In this document: positions 1 through 53,774 of the stretch, piece after piece
Position numbering within the stretch: position 1 is the first letter of the stretch
Layout: each line of letters starts with the position of its first letter
Notes under the pieces: model-generated
Told to the model about the DNA's origin: nothing
The model's database searches: none
What the model saw: the letters and a program-made list of their open reading frames with translations, nothing else
NCBI RefSeq assembly: GCF_018446385.1
Contig: NC_055999.1
Span: 84,238,281-84,302,280, forward strand
DNA: 64,000 nucleotides
From: Zingiber officinale
Taxonomy: Eukaryota; Streptophyta; Magnoliopsida; Zingiberales; Zingiberaceae
Direction: 5' to 3'
Program-made: the position numbers and the translations under genes

Positions 1-877
1 CTTCGGGTCCGGTGAAGGATGGAGCATCCAAGGGACCGTGGACAAGGCAGCGAGGACAAGGGCCGAGGGAAGAATGACATTGGGTACGAGCCGCGGGCTT
101 GAATGTATCCGAGGGACGAGAGCCAAAGGAAGTAGGCTTGAAGGCAAAAGGTCAAAGCTGCAAAGGAAGCGTCAAATGAGTCATAAGGGTGAGGGTACGA
201 GTGCATGAGAGATTGTACTCGGAGTAAAATCCTAGTTTTAGGGTTTTACTGTAGCAGTACTGTAGCGCTACTGTAGCAGTACTGTAGCAGTCGACTGCAT
301 GTTTTAGCAGTCGACTGGTGCAGTCGACTGGTGCAGTCGACTGGGGCAGTCGACTGGCAGTGTGGAATCGAGCCGTTGGGATGTAACGGTCGAATTTCCA
401 TAGAGGGCAGTCGACTGCATGTTTTAGCAGTCGACTGGTAGGCGGGGTTTTCCAACCCGCGACCTATATAACCAAGGCTTGGAAGCTTGGTTATCCCTGA
501 TGAAATTAGACTTGGTTAAGGTCTAATTAGTAGTTTACAAGTGCTCAAGAGTTTCCCTTGTGCCCAAGAGGTCTTGGTGAGTTTGTGGTGAGATTTCTCC
601 ACCCACAAGGAGGTTTGAGCTAGCCAGAGATCTTCCGGGGAGTAATCCACCGACGGATAGGGATCGTCCACCTTACGGACACGCCGTGGAGTAGGAGCTT
701 TATCTCCGAACCACGTAAATGATCGTGTAGCTTGGTTTGCATTCTTTCCTTTAGTATTTAGCTTTCTACTTATTTTGTTTGCATTTCCGCTTGCGCACTA
801 ACGTTATAGAAAGAAGCGAGTATTTGGGGACGCCGTCTATCCAACCCCCCTTCAAGCCGGCCGACCGATCCCCAACA
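1..877 (+). mobile_element. 3' part of a copia-type LTR, left end outside the window
   Basis: The block ends in CCCCAACA at 877, where minus-strand copia reverse transcriptase begins abruptly, so this LTR is inserted into that element. It has the layout of a plant SIRE-type LTR: a short-repeat zone (240-440), a box reading CTATATAACC near 464-473, then the R/U5-like end. The repeat zone holds about seven copies of the perfect palindrome CAGTCGACTG plus CAGTACTG and GTAGCGCTAC palindromes. The window start hides whether this is a solo LTR or the end of a full element. Orientation is inferred from the TATA-like box and the terminal CA. Confidence 0.75.
288..437. repeat. Short palindrome array inside the copia LTR
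   Basis: GCAGTCGACTG occurs about seven times between 288 and 437, four of them (from 307) spaced 13 bp apart. Each core is a perfect 10-bp palindrome. It lies upstream of the TATA-like box at 464, where U3 regulatory sites would be expected. Confidence 0.8.
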
Positions 878-1419
878 GTAAATTCATCTAAGAATTCTGA
901 ATTTGTTGAACCAAAGATTATGTTATCTACGTAAATTTGTGCTATAAAAATATCTTCTTTTATTAATTTGACAAATAAGGTTGGGTCAATTTGTCCTTGG
1001 TTAAACCCTTTAGAGATTAGGTAAGACGTTAGTCTTTCATACCAAGCCCTAGGTGCTTGCTTAAGTTCATATAAGGCTTTCTTCAATTTATAGACATAAT
1101 CAGGGTGTTCTAGACTCTCAAACCTAGGTGGTTGTCTTACGTAGACTTCTTCTTTTATTAGTCCATTTAGGAATGCTGACTTAACATCCATTTGGTATAG
1201 TCTAAACCCTTTGTGTGCTGCATAACTTAGTAACATCCTAATGGACTCTAGTCTAGCTACTGGGGCATATGTTTCATCATAGTCAAGTCCTTCCACTTGA
1301 CTGAACCCCTTAGCAACTAGCCTGGCCTTATTTCTAGTAATTTCACCAGTTTCACTTAGTTTGTTTCTAAATACCCATTTTGTTTCTATTATTTTCTTAT
1401 TCTTGGGTGGGGGTACCAA
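878..1419 (-). pseudogene. Copia reverse transcriptase fragment
   Basis: The translation carries the copia RT signature: the N-terminal TKWVFRNK block, [27 protein letters not shown], the [11 protein letters not shown] motif with the first catalytic Asp, and the APRAWYE block. It ends near the YVDN catalytic motif, just before the inserted LTR at 877. It is part of a retroelement fossil and has no host role. Confidence 0.9.
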
Positions 1420-1960
1420 GTCTCAAACTTCATTACGCTCAAATTGAGCTAATTCTTCTTGCATAGCTATGACCCAGTCTGGGTCAAGTAGTGACTCGGC
1501 TATGGTTTTGGGTTTAATTTTTGAGATTAAAGATATTTGACATAGATTTCTAAAGGAATATCTAGTTTGAACCCTAAGATCTGGGTCACCAATTATTTGA
1601 TCAGTTGGGTGATTTGGATTGACTCTTATTGTTCTAGGGGGTTGATTCTCCTGAGGTCGTTCTTCTTCTTCATGACTTAGGATTTGGTTGGCTCCTTCAG
1701 AGTTATTATTTTCTTAAACAAAATCAATTGATTGATGTTGTGTTTGTTCTAGGTTTTGTTTGGATTCTTCAAATTTCACATTAGTAGTTTTTTCAATTCT
1801 TAAGGTAACCTTATTGTAAACCCTGCAGCCTCTACTATTTAGGGAGTATCCTAAGAAAATTCCATTTTCAACTTTGGAGGTGAATTTTCCTAAGTGTTCT
1901 CTTGTGTTTAAGATAAAAGCTGGGCACCCAAATACTCTAAAGTATTTTATATTGGGTTGT

Positions 1961-2605
1961 CTATTGTAATAAACTCCAAAAAAATGTTTTGTTATGGGTT
2001 TTGTTTAGTGTTGTTTTGTTTTGTACATAGCAAGCTGTACTAACAGCTTCTGCCAAAAAATATTTAGGTAAGTTGTATTCATTTAACATTGTTCTAGAGG
2101 CTTCAAGTAAAGTTCTATTTTTTCTTTCTACAATCCCATTTTGTTGGGGGGTTTTAGGGCATGAAAATTCATGATGGTAGCCATTTTCAAGACAGAATTT
2201 GTTAAAGTTATGATTTTTGAATTCTCCCCCATTATCACTTCTAATTCTTTTAATTTTAAGGTCCTTTTCATTTTCGACTTGTTTACAAAAGTTTGTAAAA
2301 ATTTCAAAAGTTTCATCCTTATTTTTTAAAAACTTTACCCAAGTGAACCTAGAATAGTCATCTATTATTACTAGACAGTATAGACTTCCATTTATTGATT
2401 TGACTCCATGGGAGTCAAATAAGTCTAAATGTAACAGTTCTAAGATTGAGTTGGTTTGTGATTCATTAGTTGATTTGTGGGTAGATTTTGTTTGCTTACC
2501 TTGTTGACAAGCATTACATATGGTTGAATCAAGGTTAGGTAATTTTGGTAGTCCTCTAACTAGTCCATTTAGTCTGCTTATATTTCTGAAATTTGTATGT
2601 GACAT
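1961..2605 (-). pseudogene. Copia integrase region
   Basis: The translation shows the end of the zinc-binding segment (CNACQQGK) followed by a DDE core: Asp in LLHLDLFDS, Asp in RSDNGGEF, and Glu in NGIVERKNRTL. This is the retroviral-type integrase fold (rve family) in the copia arrangement. The first His pair of the zinc finger lies upstream and is not clear in this frame. Confidence 0.88.
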
Positions 2606-2788
2606 TCTTCTATGTCATAACCAGGTTTCTTCTTTTTGTGTTAAATAACACTTAATTGAAGAAGTGGTTAAGTTAATCGCATAGATGTTGTCTTTCCTAA
2701 ACCCTTTTAGGCTTATGTTAGGGTTGTCTAGGTGTTTAATTAAGCATTCTATAGATAAAAACCTAACTTTATACATAGTATCACACAG

Positions 2789-6453: not shown

Positions 6454-7548
6454 TGTTGGATCGTGAAGTTTCGCTAGAGGGGGGGGTGAATAGCGATTAT
6501 AAAAAATTTCGACAAGAGTAAGCGCAGCGGAAAAGAAAACAAGCCAAAGAGAACGCAAGGATTTACTTGGTTCGGAGCCTTTGGCGACTCCTACTCCAAG
6601 GCCCGCACACAAGGGTGCTTTCGATGGGCAATTCACTAGCAGTTCGAAAGTTATTACAAACTAAGTATAGAGAATGCTAATGAAAAAACAATTAAAGCAA
6701 TACCGACAAAATAAGAGACTTAGAAAAAGGAAGCAGCGCGTTTGTCAGAACTTTGCAGCGTCGCAGGAGCACAGAAGAACAGATCGTCAATTCAGAGTTG
6801 TTGTTGGAGCTCCACTCATGCCCCTTCTTTTATATGACGCTCGGGTCGCCCCAGATCCCTTCCGGGCGCCCTGGAGGAGTGTGGCAGGTCCAACCAGTGA
6901 GCTCCACGTGGCGACGACGTGTTTGGATGAAATTTGTCTCCCGGGGGCCCAGATCCCCTCCGGGCGCCCGGACCACCTTTTTCCAGGGAGCACATTTCCT
7001 GCAAAACAAGGTTAGTCCGAGGCAGATATATAAATTATAACCTGCAAAACAGAGTGTTAGTTTAGTTTATAGTTTAGCAAAAAGAGTATGACTTAGATTC
7101 CGTCTTTCCGAGACCGAAATCTAGTCACGATCTCGACTTAGATATCCGAAATGGATCTAAGCCGGATCGACGCCTAATGTTCCCTTCCCGGGAACGCGTC
7201 CTCACAGTCACTCCCTTCCAGTGACTTATCTTTACTCACCTGCCAGACGTCCGGTCAGTCCTTCGACCCGTCTGGACTTCTCGCCAAGCATCCGGTCAGC
7301 CCGTCGACCCGCTTGGACTTCTTGCCAGACATCCGGTCAGCCCGTCGACCTAGCTGGACTTCTCGCCAAGCGTCCGGTCAGCCCGTCGACTCGCTTGGAC
7401 TTCGTGCCAGACATCCGGTCAGCCCGTCGACCTGTCTGGACTTATCCTGCACACTCGGTCAGAGTGTTAGATCACGACAAACCTAACTCAACCTAATTTG
7501 TCATTCATCAAAACCTGGGTTAGACCGTTAGTGCTAACCGCACCAACA
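6454..7548 (-). repeat. 5' LTR of the copia element, 1095 bp
   Basis: The edges are TGTTGG and CCAACA, a perfect 6-bp inverted end. The left edge abuts the primer site and the right edge abuts Tat-element sequence. The interior holds a GC-rich zone around 6840-6990 with repeated CGGGCGCCC-like words, and the 41-bp hairpin array at 7243-7439. The partner 3' LTR would lie left of the window. Confidence 0.85.
7243..7439. repeat. Five 41-bp hairpin repeats in the copia LTR
   Basis: Units start at 7243, 7284, 7325, 7366 and 7407, an exact 41-bp period. Each unit has complementary ends around a shared core CCGGTCAGCCCGTCGACC. The stems differ between units yet still pair: CCAGACG with CGTCTGG (unit 1), CCAAGC with GCTTGG (unit 2), CCAAGCG with CGCTTGG (unit 4), CCAGACA with TGTCTGG (unit 5). 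Unit 3 pairs only over four bases. The frame open across it on the plus strand is just the repeat read through. Confidence 0.9.
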
Positions 7549-8215: not shown

Positions 8216-8654
8216 GCTCATCTGGCTAGAAAGGACCAAGCCTCTGGCTCTGGTAGCCATGTAAACCCTTAAAAAATGTACCTCTGATTTAACGGAATAA
8301 AACCTATTTTCTGCGTTCCATTCATGGTGTAGCCCCACACTCTACTGCTCGGGTATCATCATATTTTTATAGAACACCTGCGTTTGACTAGTATTTCTAG
8401 CAAAAATAATAAAGATAACTTGCTTACCCCCTCTTCCTTTTACCTCCTATCACATGAGCCTTTGGCTGAAGCGAATGAGGCGCTGGAGAATGCGCCCGTG
8501 ACTTAAGAATACGCATGCAAAATGTCATATTTGGCAAGAAACCTTGAAATATGACTGACTAACCAATCCTGAACGATAACTTGACTTGCTGAATTTTGCG
8601 TCGGCGAATATAAGGAGTACCGACAGAGAAAATCATTGTACCGACTGAAAAGAT
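8216..8654. other. Non-coding spacer in the Tat downstream region
   Basis: It lies between the coiled-coil ORF and the 71-bp array. No open frame or known motif was found. A few CG-rich words resemble the start of the array. Confidence 0.5.
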
Positions 8655-9652
8655 CGTTGGGCGTGAGAGCCTTGCTCACTTATAACTCGCACTAAGGCGA
8701 GAGTCTGGGACCCGACCTGGACGGTCGTTGGGCGTGAGAGCCTTGCTCACTTATAACTCGTACTGGGGCGAGAGTCTGGGACCCGACCTGGACGGTCGTT
8801 GGGTGTGAGAGTCTTGCTCACTTATAACTCACACTGGGGCGAGAGTATGGACGGTCGTTGAGTGTGAGAGTCTTGCTCACTTATAACTCGCACTGGGGCG
8901 AGTGTCTGGGACCCGACCTGGACGGTCGTTGGGCGTGAGAGCCTTGCTCACTTATAACTCGCACTAGGGCGAGAGTCTGGGACCCGACCTAAACAATCGT
9001 TGAGCGTGAGAGCCTTGCTCACTTATAATTCTCACTGGGGCCAGAGTCTGGGACCCGACCTGAATGGTCGTTGGGCGTGAGAGCCTTGCTCACTTATAAC
9101 TCGCACTGGGGCAAGAGTCTGGGACCCGACCTGAACGGTCGTTGGGCGTGAGAGCCTTTCTCACTTATAACTCGCACTGGGGTGAGAGTTTGGGACCCGA
9201 CCTGGACGGTCGTTGGGCGTGAGAGCCTTGCTCGCTTATAACTCGCACTGGGCCGAAAGTCTGGGACCCGACCTGAACGGTCGTTAGGCGTGAGAGTCTT
9301 GCTCACTTATAACTCACACTGGGGCGAGAGTCTGGGACCTGACCTAAACGGTCGTTGGGCGTGAGAGCCTTGCTCACTTATAACTCGCACTGGGCGAGAG
9401 TCTGGGACCCGACCTGAACGGTCGTTGGGCGTGAGAGCCTTGCTCACTTATAACTCGCACTGGGGCGAGAGTCTGGGATCCGACCTGAACGGTCGTTGGG
9501 CGTGAGAGCCTTGCTCACTTATAACTCGCACTGGGGCGAGAGTCTGGGACCCGACCTGAACGGTCGGGACCTGACCTGAACAGTCGATGGGCGTGAGAGC
9601 CTTGCTCACTTATAACTCGCACTGGGGCGAGAGTCTGGGACAACCGACCTGG
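8655..9652. repeat. 71-bp tandem array, about 14 copies
   Basis: The unit begins CGTTGGGCGTGAGAGCC and recurs at 8655, 8726, 8797, then a 59-bp step to 8856, 8927 and so on to about 9585. Copies are highly alike. Each unit holds three short self-complementary pairs: CGACC with GGTCG, GTGAG with CTCAC, and CTCGC with GCGAG. Tandem arrays in this downstream region are an established trait of Tat/Ogre elements and a known source of satellite DNA. Confidence 0.92.
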
Positions 9653-16551: not shown

Positions 16552-19500
16552 TTAGACTTTGTAAGGTCGCAAGTAGTTGGCGCTCCATGGTCGGTCCAGC
16601 TTCTTGCCCCGGTCATCCTGTAAGTAATAAGCTCCGGACAATAGTTTTTTGATGATTTTGTATGGTCCATCCCACTGGGGTGCTAATTTGGCCACGTCCC
16701 CCACGGGCTTAATTTGCTTCCAGACCAGATCTCCTTCTCCAAAGAATCGAGGAATCACTCTGCTGTTATAATTTTGTCTCATTCTTTGTCGATAGGCCTC
16801 AAGCTGAGCTGCCGTCCTATCACGGGTTTCACTAATGAGGTCCAGCTCAGCCAACCACCGCTCTGAGTTTTCTTCGTCGTATAATGTCCTCCTGACTGAT
16901 GGAACTCCGATTTCTATGGGTACAACCGCTTCATTGCCATAAACCAGATGGAATGGTGTTAGACCCGTACTTTCCCGAGGTGTTGTGCGATAAGCCCATA
17001 AGATGCTTGATAACTCCTCCACCCAGTTACCTCCCACATGATCCAGCTTAACCTTCAGACCTCGTATTATTTCTCTGTTGACTACCTCAGTCTGACCATT
17101 GCTTTGTGGATATGCTACTGAAGTGAAGGCCTGCGTTATGTCAAACCCCTTGCACCAGGCCTGTATTTTTTGCCCTTGAAATTGCCTTCCATTGTCTGAC
17201 ACCAGTTTGTGAGGAATACCGAATCTGCAAAGAATGTTCTTCCATAGAAATTGGATGACGACATCTTCTGTGATCCTGGCCAGGGCCTCTGCTTCCACCC
17301 ACTTAGAGAAATAATCTATCGCCACTAACAAGAAATGTCTTTGACTCGGAACTATCGGAAATGGTCCCACAATACCCGTGCCCCACTGATCAAAAGGACA
17401 TGAGACTATAGAGGTTCTCAGCAGAGCTGTTGGTCGATGTGTTAAATTTTGGTGCCTTTGGCAGGACAGGCAGGTGTTTACCAACTTGTGAGCATCCCTC
17501 TGTAAAGTATGCCAGAAATACCCGGCCAGGAGTACCTTGCGAGACAAGGTCCGACCACCTACATGATTGCCACAGCATCCCAGATGTATTTCTCGCAAGG
17601 CTTGGTCGGCCTCCTCCATATCTAAGCATTTGAGTAAGGGTCTGGAGAAGGACCTCTTGTAGAGCTGATCCCCGATCATGACATAAGCATGGGCTTGCTT
17701 CCTGATCAGCCGTGATTCTTCTGGGTCGGTTGATAAGATACCCTGCCTAAGATAGTCGATCATGGGTGTCCGCCAATCGATAGTTGCTTCCCTATTATTT
17801 TGCATATCTATCTGAGCTATAAGGAAAGTTTGTGCCGTTGACCGGTCCAACACCCAAGTAGTTAAGGAACTGGCCATCTTTGCTAGCTCATCTGCCTTCT
17901 CATTCTCCGACCTGGGGATCTTGGCCACTGTGATCTCTGCAAATTCCCCTTTCATCTTCTCATAAGCTTCCCAGTATACTTGTAATTTATCACAATTTAT
18001 CATAAAGTTGTCGGTCACCTGCTGAGTTACCAGCTGGGAATCTGAATAAATGATTACCCGGGCTGCCCCTATGTGACGGGTTGCTTGCAGTCCAGCCAGC
18101 AAAGCCTCGTATTCTGCCTCATTGTTGGTGACTCGAAAATTCAATCGAACAACCAATTGGAGTATATCCCCTTGGGGAGATATCAATAAGACCCCGACCC
18201 CGCTTCCTTGGTGATTCGTCGATTCATCCACATAGACCTTCCAAGTTTCTTCAGAGTTGGTCTGATGAATTTCTGTTAAGAAATCTGCTAAGGCCTGCGC
18301 CTTAATGGCTGTGCGCGGCTGATATTGTATATCGTATTCCCCCAACTCTGTTGCCCACTTGATAAGCCGACCTACCACTTCTATATTAGTTAGAGCTCTC
18401 CCCATGGTGCTATTGGTTAAAACTGTGATGGGATGTGCTAAGAAGTAAGGTCTTAATCGCCGAGCCATAAGAACCAATCCGTAAACCAACTTCTCGAGGG
18501 TCGTGTATCGAGCCTCGACCCCTTTTAATAGATGACTGAAGAAATACACTGGTCGTTGTACATTGTCATGTTCCTTAACAAGCACGGCCCCTACGACCTC
18601 AGGGGTGGCAGATAAGTAGACCCATAAGGGTTCCCCAACAACCGACTTGAACAAAGATGGCAAAGCCTCCAAATACTTCTTCAGCTCCTCAAAAGCTCGA
18701 GTACAGCCTTCATCCCATTGGAATTTGGAGGTCTTCCTGAGCACTTTAAAGAAAGGAGCAGCTCGGTCTGCAGATCTGGAAATGAATCTTGACAGGGCTG
18801 TTATTCTGCCGACCAGCTTCTGAGTTTCCTTCAAATCTGGGGAGGCTGCATATCACGTAATGCCCGAACTTTTTCTGGATTAGCTTCTATTCCCCGCTCG
18901 GTCATCAAGTAGCCCAAGAATTTTCCTCCTTTAGCTCCAAACAGGCATTTCAAGGGGTTCAGCTTCAGCCCATACTGCCGGAGAGTCCTGCATGTTTCTT
19001 CCACATCCTTGATCAAGTTCACGGCTAACAGGGACTTGATGAGTATATCATCCGCATAAACCTCCACATTGCGCCCGATCTGCTCCCGGAAGATTTTGTC
19101 CATCATTCTTTGGTATGTGGCTCTAGCGTTCCTGAGACCAAAGGACATGACAGTATAACAGAAGGTACCGTCAGCCGTAATGAAACTAACCTTTTCTTGG
19201 TCCTCCCTCGCTAGAGGTATCTGATGATACCCCTGGTATGCATCCAGCATGTAGATCCTCTCGCAGCCGGCTATGGAATCCACCATCTGATAGATCCGGG
19301 ACAGAGGATAGCAGTCCTTGGGACTAGCTCGGTTGAGGTCTCTGAAGTCTATACACACCCTCCACTTATTGTTCGATTTTTTTACTAAAACCACATTAGA
19401 GAGTCAGGACGGGAACTGTACTTCTCGAACGTGGCCTGCCTTCCTGAGCTGATCCACCTCAGCTCTGATTATTTTATTCTGGTCGGCTGAGAAGTTTCTT

Positions 19501-23554: not shown

Positions 23555-25341
23555 TGATAACCATGATTTTACTGCATTATTTTGATTCATATATGCATGG
23601 TTTGATGTTGATTTCATAGTTTAAATCATGGTTACATCACATTTTGTGCATAGTGTGTATTTTTGGACTTAATTACAAATTATATTATTTTTGGTGTTAT
23701 TTGATGCTAATATTTGATTATTATTTTGTAGGCATCAAAGGATCTTGGATTTGGATCTATTTGGACCGAAATTGGGCTCAAATCGGAGTTCAAACGAGAA
23801 GATCTAGCCATTGAGCATTATGAGCCGTTCATCAAGAATAGGACAGATTTGGACCATCCGTTGAAGATCTGGCCGATCCAACTTAATGGGGAGCAGATCT
23901 GAGCCATTGATGAAGATCCAGAAGTTTTGATGCAGATCTGAGTTCATCTAGCTATTGATCCAGTCCGACTTAATCTGGACCGTTCAATGAAGACTGGGCC
24001 GATCTGGGCCATCAAGTGATGATATGATCAATCCGACCTACGGGAGGGTAGATCCAGACCCTAGATCAACATCAGTACCTTCGGATCAGATTTTGGATGA
24101 CTTTTCACCGTTGATTTAGCCCGGAATCATCTCAACCGTCCATTCCAGATCCAGATCTGATTTAAATGAGAAGCTACAGTAGCCAGCTTCTTCGTCGATT
24201 CTCCACAGTGCCGTTCTTCGCGTCCCGTGGCGTTCTCCGAGATTCCGACCACCATCTCGATCTCTAGATCAATTTTCCGGCCAATTTCATCGCCGACGAC
24301 GTTCTCAGCTGCTTGCTACCATCTCCTGATGATCTGACCTCGCTTCAAGGTGTTCCTGCGGCGCGAATTCTGCTCCGCAAACCTCTGCTTCTGCCGCTGC
24401 CGATTGTGAGGTGTTCCTCCAATCGGTGGTTCCGCTTCCATCAGTGAGCTTTGGCGGTGTTCCTCCACTGCTACTGGACCATTCCCGACGACCTTCCATC
24501 CATCATCTTCTCCACATCAGATCTGAGGTTGCAGCTCACAGATTTTCAGATTTTCCGAGTTGGGCGGCACCGATCTTCATTAGCTTCGTTTGGAGTGGTC
24601 TCCGATGGTGCTGGTGAAGGCTGAGTTGAGTGTAGCTACTGAGGTTGTCTTCTCTGATTACAGTTGGAGTGTTCTCCGTTGTTTCCTTGTGTGACGGCAA
24701 GGAGAAATTGTCGTGAGAAGAGATTTGGAGTTGAGATGGTTTAGGGTTTAATTTTTGCATTCATTTTACTATTTACAGATTTAGATTTCAGTTAATGTTG
24801 TTTGGATTCATTAGCATAGTTCTTCTTAACTTAATTGTTTTAATTCAAGTGTTTGAGTAATTCAGTTTTAATTGCTTTTGAAGTTGTTGTTAATTTAGCT
24901 TTAGCTTAAATTTCAGCACTGTTGAGTAGCTTAGTTTTAGTAGTTAAGATTTAAATTTTGCTTTAGAACGTATTCATTTATGTCTTGTTGTTTATTCTTA
25001 GTTTAAGAGTGTCAATGATTTAATCTCAATGTAGGAGTGACAATGCGTTAAGGTTTGATTATTGGCACATAGGTAGGTTTTAGTTATGCTTTAGATTAAT
25101 TTGTTTACTGCTGTGTTTTCCTTTGTAGATTTATATTCAAAGCTTTAAAACCCCCAACTCCATTTTTATATCGAAAACCCCAAAAATAGGAATAAAAATA
25201 CAATCCTAAATTACATCATACTGTTGGTTCCTCGAGAGCGATCCTGGGCTCGTTACTACAACATTATTGTTTAATTAAGGGGTTCAGTGGAAAATACATT
25301 TGTATAATTTGATTAACGGATGTGACAGATCGGCTTTACCA
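23555..25341 (+). repeat. Left LTR of the 10.3-kb element
   Basis: It is about 1787 bp and nearly identical to 32036-33835 up to about 25220, after which the two differ strongly. The exact end is set by aligning its CTTTACCA with CCTTATCA of the other LTR. Confidence 0.85.
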
Positions 25342-32035: not shown

Positions 32036-33835
32036 TGATAACCATGATTTTACTGCATTATTTTGATTCATATATGCATGGTTTGATGTTGATTTCATAG
32101 TTTAAATCATGGTTACATCACATTTTGTGCATAGTGTGTATTTTTGGACTTAATTGCAAATTATATTATTTTTGGTGTTATTTGATGCTAATATTTGATT
32201 CTTATTTTGTAGGCATCAAAGGATCTTGGATTTGGATATATTTGGACCGAAATTGGGCTCAAATCGGAGTTCAAACGAGAAGATCTAGCCATTGAGCATT
32301 ATGAGCCGTTCATCAAGAATAGGACAGATTTGGACCATCCGTTGAAGATCTGGCCGATCCAACTTAATGGGGAGCAGATCTGAGCCATTGACGAAGATCC
32401 AGAAGTTTTGATGCAGATCTGAGTTCATCTAGCTATTGATCCAGTCCGACTTAATCTGGACCGTTCAATGAAGACTGGGCCGATCTGGGCCATCCAGTGA
32501 TGATATGATCAATCCAACCTACGGGAGGGTAGATCCAGACCCTAGATCAACATCAGTACCTTCGGATCAGATTTTGGATGACTTTTCACCGTTGATTTAG
32601 CCCAGAATCATCTCAACCGTCCATTCCAGATCCAGATCTGATTTAAATGAGAAGCTACAGTAGCCAGCTTCTTCGTCGATTCTCCACAGCGCCGTTCTTC
32701 GCGTCCCGCGGCGTTCTCCGAGATTCCGACCACCATCTCGATCTCTAGATCAATTTTCCAGCCAATTTCATCGCCGACGACGTTCTCAGCTGCTTGCTAC
32801 CATCTCCTGATGATCTGACCTCGCTTCAAGGTGTTCCTACGGCGAGAATTCTGCTCCGCAAACCTCTGCTTCTGCCGCTGCCGATTGTGAGGTGTTCCTC
32901 CAATCGGTGGTTCCGCTTCCATCAGTGAGCTTTGGCGGTGTTCCTCCATTGCTACTGGACCATTCCTGACGACCTTCCATCCATCATCTTCTCCACATCA
33001 GATCTGAGGTTGCAGCTCACAGATTTTCAGATTTTCCGAGTTGGGCGGCACCGATCTTCATTAGCTTCGTTTGGAGTGGTCTCCGATGGTGCTGGTGAAG
33101 GCTGAGCTGAGTGTAGCTACTGAGGTTGTCTTCTCTGATTACAGTTGGAGTGTTCTCTGTTGTTTCCTTGTGTGACGGCAAGGAGAAATTGCCGTGAGAA
33201 GAGATTTGGAGTTGAGATGGTTTAGGGTTTAATTTTTGTATTCATTTTACTGTTTACAGATTTAGATTTCAGTTAATGTTGTTTGGATTCATTAGCATAG
33301 TTCTTCTTAGCTTAATTGTTTTAATTCAAGTGTTTGAGTAATTCAGTTTTAATTGCTTTTGAAGTTGTTGTTAATTTAGCTTTAGCTTAAATTTTAGCAC
33401 TGTTGAGTAGCTTAGTTTTTGTAGTTAAGATTTAAATTTTGCTTTAGAACGTATTCATTTAAGTCTTGTTGTTTATTCTTAGTTTAAGAGTGTCAATGAT
33501 TTAATCTCAATGTAGGAGTGACAATGCGTTAAGGTTTGATTATTGGCACATAGGTAGGTTTTAGTTATGCTTTAGATTAATTTCTTTACTGCTGTGTTTT
33601 CCTTTGTAGATTTATATTCAAAGCTTTAAAACCCCCAACTCCATTTTTATATCGAAAACCCCAAAAATAGGAATAAAAATACAATCCTAAATTACATTCT
33701 ATCGTTGGTTCCTCGGGATCGATCCTGGGCTCGTTACTATAACGTTATTGTGAAATTAAGGGGTTCAGTGAATATTAAATTGTTAATTTGATAAGCCTAT
33801 TTGTCACATTTAATATAGATTTTAGTGCCTTATCA
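32036..33835 (+). repeat. Right LTR of the 10.3-kb element, 1800 bp
   Basis: It begins TGATAACC at 32036 and ends TTATCA at 33835, followed by the TGTAG duplication. It is the partner of 23555-25341. Confidence 0.9.
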
Positions 33836-52576: not shown

Positions 52577-53774
52577 TTTTCCCCCCTCCCTGACACGCGC
52601 ACCTCCCCTCCCCCTCTCTCTCTCCTCTTTAAATGTCTGTTCTGCCCCTCTATCTTTTTTGATTTTTTTTTTGATTTTTTTTAGTTTTATTTTTAAATTT
52701 AATTTAATTTATTAATTTTTTCATTCATACTTATATATTTTTAAATTTCTATTTAATTTTAATTTTTTAATCAATTTTATTTATTATTTTTCATTAATAC
52801 TTATATATATTTATTAATTTATTTAGTTTTATTTTTTAATTAATTTTGTTTATTATTTTTCATTAATACTTATATTTTTTAAATTTTATTTAAGTTTTAT
52901 TTATTATTTTTTAATATTTATTTAATTTTATTTCTTTAATTAATTTTGTTTATTATTATTATTATCAAATTTTTTAAATTTTTTTTATTTTATATAGTTT
53001 TTAAATTACTCTCTTCCTGTAAATTATCTTTCTAATTTGATACTTAAATTACCCCTCATCCAACTATTGACACATGTCATAATCTTCTCTCCCTTTAAAT
53101 TATCCCTCTCTCCAACCATTGGCACATAACACATGTCAGAATCTCTCACCCTCTTTAAATTACCCATCCTCCAACCATGTCAATGGTTGAAGGGAGGGAT
53201 GATTTAAAGGGAGAGAAGATTATGACATGTATCAATAGTTGGATGAGGATAATTTAAGTGTCAAATTAGGAAGGTAATTTACAGGAAATGAGTAATTTAA
53301 AAATTATATAAAATTTAAAAAATTAAAAAAATTTGATAACAATAATAATAAATAAAATTGATTAAAGAAATAAATATTAAAAAATAATAAATAAAATTAA
53401 TTAAAAATAAAACTTAAATAAAATTTAAAAAATATAAGTATTAATGAAAAATAATAAACAAAATTAATTAAAAAATAAAACTAAATAAATTAATAAATTA
53501 AATTAATTAAAAAATAAAAACTAAATGAAATTTATATAAAACTGAAAAAATAAGTATTGATAAAAAATAATAAATTAAATTAATTAAAAAAGAAAATTTA
53601 AAATATACTGAGAGTTATTTTTAAACAAAATTAATTAAAAAATTAAAATTAAATAAAAATTAAATGAAATTAAAAAAAAAAGGAAAAAAACAGAAGAGGG
53701 GGTTACATGCGTCATTTGGCAGGGAGAGAGGGGAGAAAAAGAAGGGTGTGTGTCAGATCGGGAGGGGGGAAAAG
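52577..53774. mobile_element. 1.2-kb inverted-repeat (fold-back) element
   Basis: The left arm (52577 to about 53180) is the imperfect reverse complement of the right arm (about 53181-53774), meeting at CAACCATGTCAATGGTTG. The outer ends are CTTTTCCCCCCTCCC and GGGAGGGGGGAAAAG. Inside are C/T-rich, then AT-rich, then CTCCAACCATTGGCACAT-like blocks, mirrored in order. No coding frame exists. It behaves like a long-armed MITE or fold-back transposon, or it arose by inverted duplication. I could not settle a target duplication, so the superfamily is open. Confidence 0.85.

Follow-up and report, generated by a model that had tools for sequence, protein, structure and literature searches.

Paired changes in the arms of a palindromic repeat array in the U3 region of a Sirevirus-type LTR from Zingiber officinale

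The U3 region of a Sirevirus-type long terminal repeat (LTR) in Zingiber officinale carries an array of five 41-bp units with dyad symmetry, whose arms differ from unit to unit while remaining largely complementary. We read it as a palindromic repeat cluster in which selection has acted on the symmetry of the unit rather than on the sequence of its arms, and put the probability of this reading at roughly 0.6. The arms found in many copies are complementary and those of resident copies decay independently, so symmetry appears to be kept in the lineages that replicate and lost once a copy is resident. Selection on dyad or hairpin symmetry is, in our best reading, the simplest explanation of that contrast.

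The array lies in a Ty1/copia element on the minus strand of the window, by which we mean the whole stretch of 64,000 nucleotides analyzed. Profile matches give the domain order gag, integrase, reverse transcriptase, all on the minus strand, so that a copia gag is combined with an integrase that precedes the reverse transcriptase, as in Sireviruses. The label "copia LTR", given in an earlier note on this DNA, was thus correct, as judged from the copia gag profile (PF14223), the match to a second LTR and the adjoining primer binding site (PBS). The parts of the element are as follows.

6454–7548, minus strand: 5′ LTR of 1,095 bp, TGTTGG...CCAACA, delimited by the match to the partner LTR, by longer matches in other copies and by a lower end that adjoins the PBS
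6479–6486, minus strand: poly-C stretch near the LTR end, compared with the available part of PMC2829016
6440–6448, minus strand: PBS TATCAGAGC, an exact match to the Sirevirus PBS given in the available part of PMC2829016
4514–6304, minus strand: copia-type gag open frame (PF14223, E = 8.8e-17)
1961–2614, minus strand: integrase piece (PF00665, E = 2e-14; PF13976, E = 7.5e-9)
766–1422, minus strand: reverse transcriptase piece (PF07727, E = 3.4e-55)

The partner LTR (locus L009) lies 13.6 kb from the window LTR, with 13,608 between the two arrays; it breaks off too early to show a target-site duplication, and 525 bp of it are matched at 95.4% (BLAST). The pair has a K2P distance of 0.0455 over 524 sites. 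A rate of 1.3e-8 per site and year, the one usually taken for rice, would put the age of the element at about 1.75 million years.

Several short motifs bear on the identity of the element. The Sirevirus PBS follows CA/ATTGG, and the window junction reads CA/AGTGA, a spacer that differs at two of five bases, one of them a known variant. In L009, the Sirevirus polypurine tract (PPT) octamer AGGGGGAG is followed by AT/TG at the 3′ LTR and flanked by an inverted repeat, with the left arm beside the PPT and the right arm within the LTR, starting 34 bases inside it. The poly-C runs from 6486 to 6479 and the LTR ends at 6454; the Sirevirus poly-C integrase signal is placed at a mean of 21 bp upstream of the LTR end (available part of PMC2829016). 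The PPT with AT/TG, the PBS, the poly-C and the PPT inverted repeat all match the published description, as far as the available part of PMC2829016 gives it, and the Ty1/copia element carries the Sirevirus hallmarks that were tested.

The window holds other repeats. A 71-bp repeat is present beside the element in about 13 tandem copies, at 8654–9566; its unit contains two short inverted repeats, GTGAG..CTCAC and CTCGC..GCGAG, in which stem changes look one-sided. At 52678–53603 an AT-rich segment aligns with its reverse complement (81.6% over 972 bp), forming a large imperfect palindrome. Two direct copies, 23555–25313 and 32036–33792, are 97.7% identical over 1,759 bp and 8.5 kb apart, and may be the two LTRs of a young element. 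A 766-amino-acid open frame on the minus strand at 16552–18852 has RNase H, integrase zinc-binding and integrase core domains, an order that we read as probably of the Ty3/gypsy kind.

The array occupies LTR positions 102–307, upstream of a TATA box at position 714 of 1095. In the sense of the element, each unit reads CCAxxxx + GGTCGACGGGCTGACCGG + A + xxxxTGG, with an arm pair of 7 bp. The features between the array and the TATA box are listed with it.

7242–7446, minus strand: U3 array made up of five dyad-symmetric 41-bp units, starting 102 bp into the LTR
7407–7439, minus strand: unit 1 (numbered in the element sense), type A1, CCAGACA/TGTCTGG, 7 of 7 paired
7366–7398, minus strand: unit 2, type B arms, CCAAGCG/CGCTTGG, 7 of 7 paired, one core change
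7325–7357, minus strand: unit 3, mosaic of a type C left arm and an A1 right arm, 5 of 7 paired
7284–7316, minus strand: unit 4, type B with one arm base changed, 6 of 7 Watson-Crick pairs
7243–7275, minus strand: unit 5, type A2, CCAGACG/CGTCTGG, 7 of 7 paired
7206–7226, minus strand: U3 hairpin AGTCACT..AGTGACT (60-base window at LTR 320, z = -4.4)
7179–7195, minus strand: U3 hairpin GTTCCC..GGGAAC
7089–7127, minus strand: U3 hairpin TGACTAGATT..AATCTAAGTCA (60-base window at LTR 420, z = -3.5)
6961–6970, minus strand: palindromic box CGGGCGCCCG with the CGG-CCG signature known from Sirevirus LTR boxes, compared with Table 3 in the available part of PMC2829016
6827–6834, minus strand: TATA box TATAAAAG

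Hairpins and CGGGCGCCCG-type boxes are thus found along the stretch from the array to the TATA box. The earlier note had described five units of exactly 41 bp with complementary ends and a nearly constant loop core, and both points are borne out across 7242–7446; Tandem Repeats Finder gives an 82-bp period in addition. Read along the plus strand, arm pairing is 7, 6, 5, 7 and 7 of 7. The statement that unit 3 had lost most of its pairing was therefore too strong, since five of seven pairs remain and the unit joins arms of two types; the corresponding unit of the partner LTR in L009 is paired at all seven positions. A search for complementary 7-mers 19 apart gives 21 hits over 63,967 places in the window, three of them within the array. 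The array contains 22 CpG, at an observed/expected ratio of 1.11.

Across the 3.09-Gb genome, a degenerate 33-base pattern of the unit has 43,046 exact matches and its reversed control none. From this single genome we compiled 782 units in 149 arrays: a first sample of 109 arrays with 534 units (three lone units of 537 distinct were omitted) and a second of 40 arrays with 248 units from two more divergent families, whose loci are 20 of 40 and 20 of 41 matches, mostly the best-ranked. The first arrays were chosen by likeness to the window and later ones by exact core matches (start of C1) or rare left arms, so that unit frequencies describe a non-random sample. In the assembly, C1–C22 span 88.7–194.4 Mb (C13 aside) and C23–C26 are each below 0.32 Mb. 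Because the array flanks of L113 (C3) and L118 (C4) are nearly identical, the assembly may hold two haplotypes, in which case some arrays would be allelic twins.

Among the 782 units we recognize six paired stem types, A1, A2, B, C, D and E, which form a chain C-E-A1-A2-D-B with one base pair swapped at each step. Linking them takes at least five base-pair swaps. A G.T wobble could serve as intermediate in four of the five steps; the C-E step (C-G to A-T) has no such route, and the differences between types at pair 5 include both C-G/A-T and A-T/G-C swaps. The possibility, raised beforehand as one that would undo the idea of a kept fold, that only two types exist and stem from one ancestral event does not hold given these six types and at least five swaps; an origin of two unit types in a single event is refuted by the chain. 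We estimate that swap events were few, five in the chain and up to about eight if array positions are orthologous. In the first sample, exact copies of four arm combinations account for 311 of 534 units (B 104, C 104, A2 57, A1 46), all seven Watson-Crick pairs are present in 318 of 534, and the commonest unpaired combination has nine units.

The types are distributed by family. Family I (89 arrays with B) carries B (CCAAGCG/CGCTTGG) and A2 (CCAGACG/CGTCTGG), most often in the orders A1 B C B A2 (34 arrays) and A1 C B C A2 (15). In a small group without B, 6 of 20 arrays have the order A1 C D C A2; type D (CCAAACG/CGTTTGG) is the nearest type for eight of the 782 units, one of them exact. Family II (85–89% to L131) alternates E (CCAGATA/TATCTGG) with C and ends on A1; its nine exact E units equal in number CCAGATA/TATCTAG (9) and CTAGATA/TATCTGG (9), each one CHG-type change away. 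Family III (78–84% to L058) has 7–10 units per array, mainly type C (CCAGCTA/TAGCTGG), with A1 (CCAGACA/TGTCTGG) as the last unit. When the commonest arms are taken column by column in these four groups, all but one of 23 array positions (22) show full pairing. A tree of the flanks of the first 109 arrays places four of seven D-bearing and four of six E-bearing arrays in one B-less clade of 11, and groups two D arrays with two B arrays in a clade that is itself weak; as many as 56 of its 106 inner branches are weak, and the tree gives no order of events.

A covariation check of the kind proposed in the earlier note, run on aligned units, exceeds its shuffles in three of five measures, with the reservation that related copies are non-independent observations. 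In an alignment of 146 units (100 distinct; three of 149 were removed as out of register), paired cells make up 93.0% against 84.2 (sd 0.6) after shuffling, cells changed on both sides number 133 against 52.2 (sd 9.6), and the covariation score, of a kind that relatedness inflates, is 0.366 against 0.205; none of 500 shuffles was as high in any of the three. Control structures with slid partners score 0.023–0.116. In the same 146 units there is no excess of pairs with two-sided change (6 vs 5.7 shuffled) or of further pair types (18 vs 16.6). APC-corrected mutual information over 507 distinct 33-mers places the four variable stem pairs at ranks 1, 2, 3 and 5 of 528 column pairs; neither the three outer pairs nor the GGTC/GACC inner helix, at ranks 124 to 310, is conspicuous. 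Two-sided change is present in none of the four pairs of the inner helix, which may be conserved for its sequence. Variation is greater at the inner four arm positions than in the core, and the outer CCA/TGG changes little.

Genome-wide counts of double against single changes, made for the type D step alone, give 246 doubles, 131 left-only and 181 right-only forms beside 5,865 of the parent; from these numbers, about 4.0 doubles would be expected if the two sides changed independently. With five types modelled and shuffling kept within type and divergence class, complementary doubles number 37 against 30.7 (sd 4.4), and 212 of 2000 shuffles were as high. The only clear excess is at pair 4 (19 vs 10.1), which is type D. 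An apparent residual covariation beyond four types (27 vs 14.1, sd 3.0) shrank to these values with type E and the larger sample. A wobble-based signal for the RNA strand was likewise rejected, one-sided G.T numbering 101 and A.C 78, with no clear excess; at one inner pair there is a G.U excess of 16 to 0, which could also reflect the decay of C to T in a CCG context.

Resident copies behave differently from the types. Among the 100 matches listed at each of four positions, rare left arms have a complementary partner in 1, 0, 1 and 3 cases, that is, in 5 of 400 rare variants among the matches listed, scored by eye (genome totals for the four positions are 294, 280, 269 and 141); in the second and fourth lists, G.T wobbles and not full mismatches account for many of the rows. 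In the four usable LTR pairs (6 of 10 candidates, with unequal unit numbers, were left out), nine arm changes are one-sided and none two-sided over 147 base pairs. One-sided changes are mostly C-to-T or G-to-A and are most frequent at pairs 2 and 4, where the stem reads CAG/CTG. A bias of this kind at CAG/CTG is expected from plant CHG methylation, and chance C-to-T decay at such sites would fit many of the two-sided changes at these two pairs. Unpaired combinations are common in the older families, for example CTAGCTA/TAGCTGG in 19 of 248 units. The first unit of family II has a right arm, TATCTAG, unpaired at one position in 9 of 16 arrays (L139–L158), a possible inherited one-sided change that runs contrary to our main reading. 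Independent variation of the two stem sides, the other outcome named beforehand as fatal to a kept fold, is thus what resident copies show, and is not seen among the types of the replicating lineages. Decay does explain most departures from pairing.

Whole units are also exchanged, since their number and order vary between arrays, with 44 distinct orders among the 109 arrays of the first sample. The earlier suggestion that two alternating types spread by unequal exchange is upheld as to exchange and fails as to number, there being six types. Exact arms of two types are joined in 4 of 534 units (CCAGCTA/TGTCTGG and CCAGCTA/CGCTTGG), window unit 3 included. Adjacent units share their kind (A, B or C) in 26 of 425 cases, where shuffling gives 103.5 (sd 7.6). 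With each distinct order counted once, the figures are 26 of 152 and 44.8 (sd 4.6), and none of 2000 shuffles is as low. An exchange register of 82 bp could generate this deficit. Mean cross-pairing between neighbors is 6.63, 5.80, 5.01 and 3.77 of 7 in families III and II, the no-B group and family I, respectively, against 6.41, 6.02, 5.43 and 4.56 with order shuffled and 6.57, 5.94, 5.49 and 3.94 with each order counted once; last-unit core identities in the same sequence are 0.79, 0.80, 0.83 and 0.92. Alternation is no general rule, because cross-pairing in family III lies above its shuffled value. It is conceivable, and in our judgment quite improbable, that arrays evolve toward mutually incompatible neighbors, each unit retaining self-pairing while cross-pairing is lost through stem swaps in successive families. 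If true, this would be character displacement among hairpins, in which each folds on itself or exchange between units is hindered; the trend is a lead only, drawn from four groups, two of them defined by a type.

RNA folding gives a mixed picture. Folded singly, four of the five units have z scores of -1.97 to -2.71 on the minus strand and -2.68 to -3.60 on the plus strand, and unit 3 has -0.53 and -0.79, respectively. The drawn hairpin is recovered for three of five units on the minus strand, with a fourth internally rearranged, and for four of five on the plus strand; unit 3 does not form it on either strand in these single-unit folds. The whole array reaches z = -2.2 in sense and -1.9 in antisense, and its minimum-energy fold lacks the five separate hairpins, so that whole-array RNA folding, as modelled, would support a fold only weakly. 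As sense RNA, the LTR has z = -7.0 over its first 720 bases and -0.9 over the remainder (50 shuffles each). Rfam returned no match at gathering score within the window, and a known RNA family was rejected for the array on that basis.

The symmetry could instead come from protein binding, with a dimeric host protein recognizing the arms as half-sites and the stem types representing specificities. We consider this possible, if on balance somewhat unlikely. The array does stand upstream of the TATA box, retrotransposon activators often show dyad symmetry, and a regulatory role has been suggested for Sirevirus boxes (available part of PMC2829016). Six arm sequences, up to four of seven positions apart (B vs C), are nevertheless ill-suited to one factor, and the inner four arm positions vary more than the core.

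The paired changes may also be mutational in origin. Template switching within a hairpin, probably at reverse transcription, would copy one arm onto the other (quasi-palindrome correction), and unequal exchange would spread whole units, making selection on the fold unnecessary. Such switching yields two-sided change in one step, including the wobble-less C-G to A-T swap, and the 44 orders and the four units of joined arms, window unit 3 among them, accord with the exchange of units. We regard this origin as unlikely, given that correction is nearly absent from resident copies (the 5 of 400 rare left variants among the matches listed, and no two-sided against nine one-sided changes in four LTR pairs), although these counts concern chromosomal copies and not reverse transcription. 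It is very improbable that CHG deamination on both arms, followed by inheritance, merely mimics covariation: one-sided change is indeed mostly C-to-T and G-to-A at pairs 2 and 4, and the leftover doubles are matched by 212 of 2000 shuffles, but the types differ by C-G/A-T and A-T/G-C swaps at pair 5, type D doubles exceed each single form and the signal is gone in slid controls, the last two of which refute pure decay as the source of the types.

Selection on symmetry thus remains our preferred explanation. Replicating lineages would retain complementary arms while the letters change by single base-pair swaps, elements whose units lost dyad symmetry would have left fewer copies, and resident copies would lose pairing one side at a time. 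What selection kept might be a hairpin, formed by RNA, by single-stranded cDNA or by extruded DNA, or it might be a pair of half-sites. The earlier proposal that linked stem changes imply a kept fold holds in so far as linked changes are found in replicating lineages; such a fold might act in RNA or in DNA. Its position, together with what is reported for maize Sireviruses, suggests that the cluster regulates in cis from upstream of the TATA box; it may also be a source of small RNAs.

Objects of this kind are already known. Sirevirus LTRs carry palindromic repeated boxes (RM boxes) upstream of the promoter (Bousios et al., 2010, PMC2829016; this and the comparisons below refer to the available parts of the papers cited). 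Like them, the window array consists of CpG-containing palindromic repeats in the upper LTR half upstream of the TATA box, and its half-sites GGTC/GACC recur in CGGTCTGACCG (Osr10), CGGTCGACCG (Vitis) and CGGTCAGACCG (Osr8) (PMC2829016). It differs in its 41-bp tandem unit, its outer 7-bp arm pair and its several arm types per array, in the eight bases between GGTC and GACC, and in starting nearer the LTR end than the 200–400 bp reported (PMC2829016). RM boxes number at least eight copies per element (PMC2829016), against five units in the window LTR, counting array units alone. A symmetric CGG-CCG core is absent from the repeat unit, which shows GGTC..GACC with CGG after GACC only; the CGG-CCG signature is present in the separate CGGGCGCCCG box at 6961–6970.

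In Tnt1-type copia LTRs, which belong to another lineage, the promoter is preceded in U3 by tandem enhancer boxes that have symmetry and differ in sequence from the window array; we know of no paired arm evolution in them. Box I of Tnt1 is named in PMC2829016. In maize, Sirevirus palindromes lie in the cis-regulatory region, and an excess of small RNAs maps there (PMC10760457, PMC5311732). The maize LTRs resemble the window array in having palindrome clusters with strong predicted structure in their regulatory part; the maize motif, CACCGGACNNNGTCCGGTG, is unlike the window unit, and the small-RNA mapping is for maize only (PMC10760457, PMC5311732).

A literature search that took in few subscription journals found no earlier description of LTR arrays whose arms evolve stepwise in pairs, and in this respect the present array goes further than the known Sirevirus palindrome clusters. 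The finding addresses the question of whether Sirevirus LTR palindromes are protein sites, structures or merely tolerated. Here structure can be separated from sequence, through paired swaps in replicating lineages as against one-sided decay in residents.
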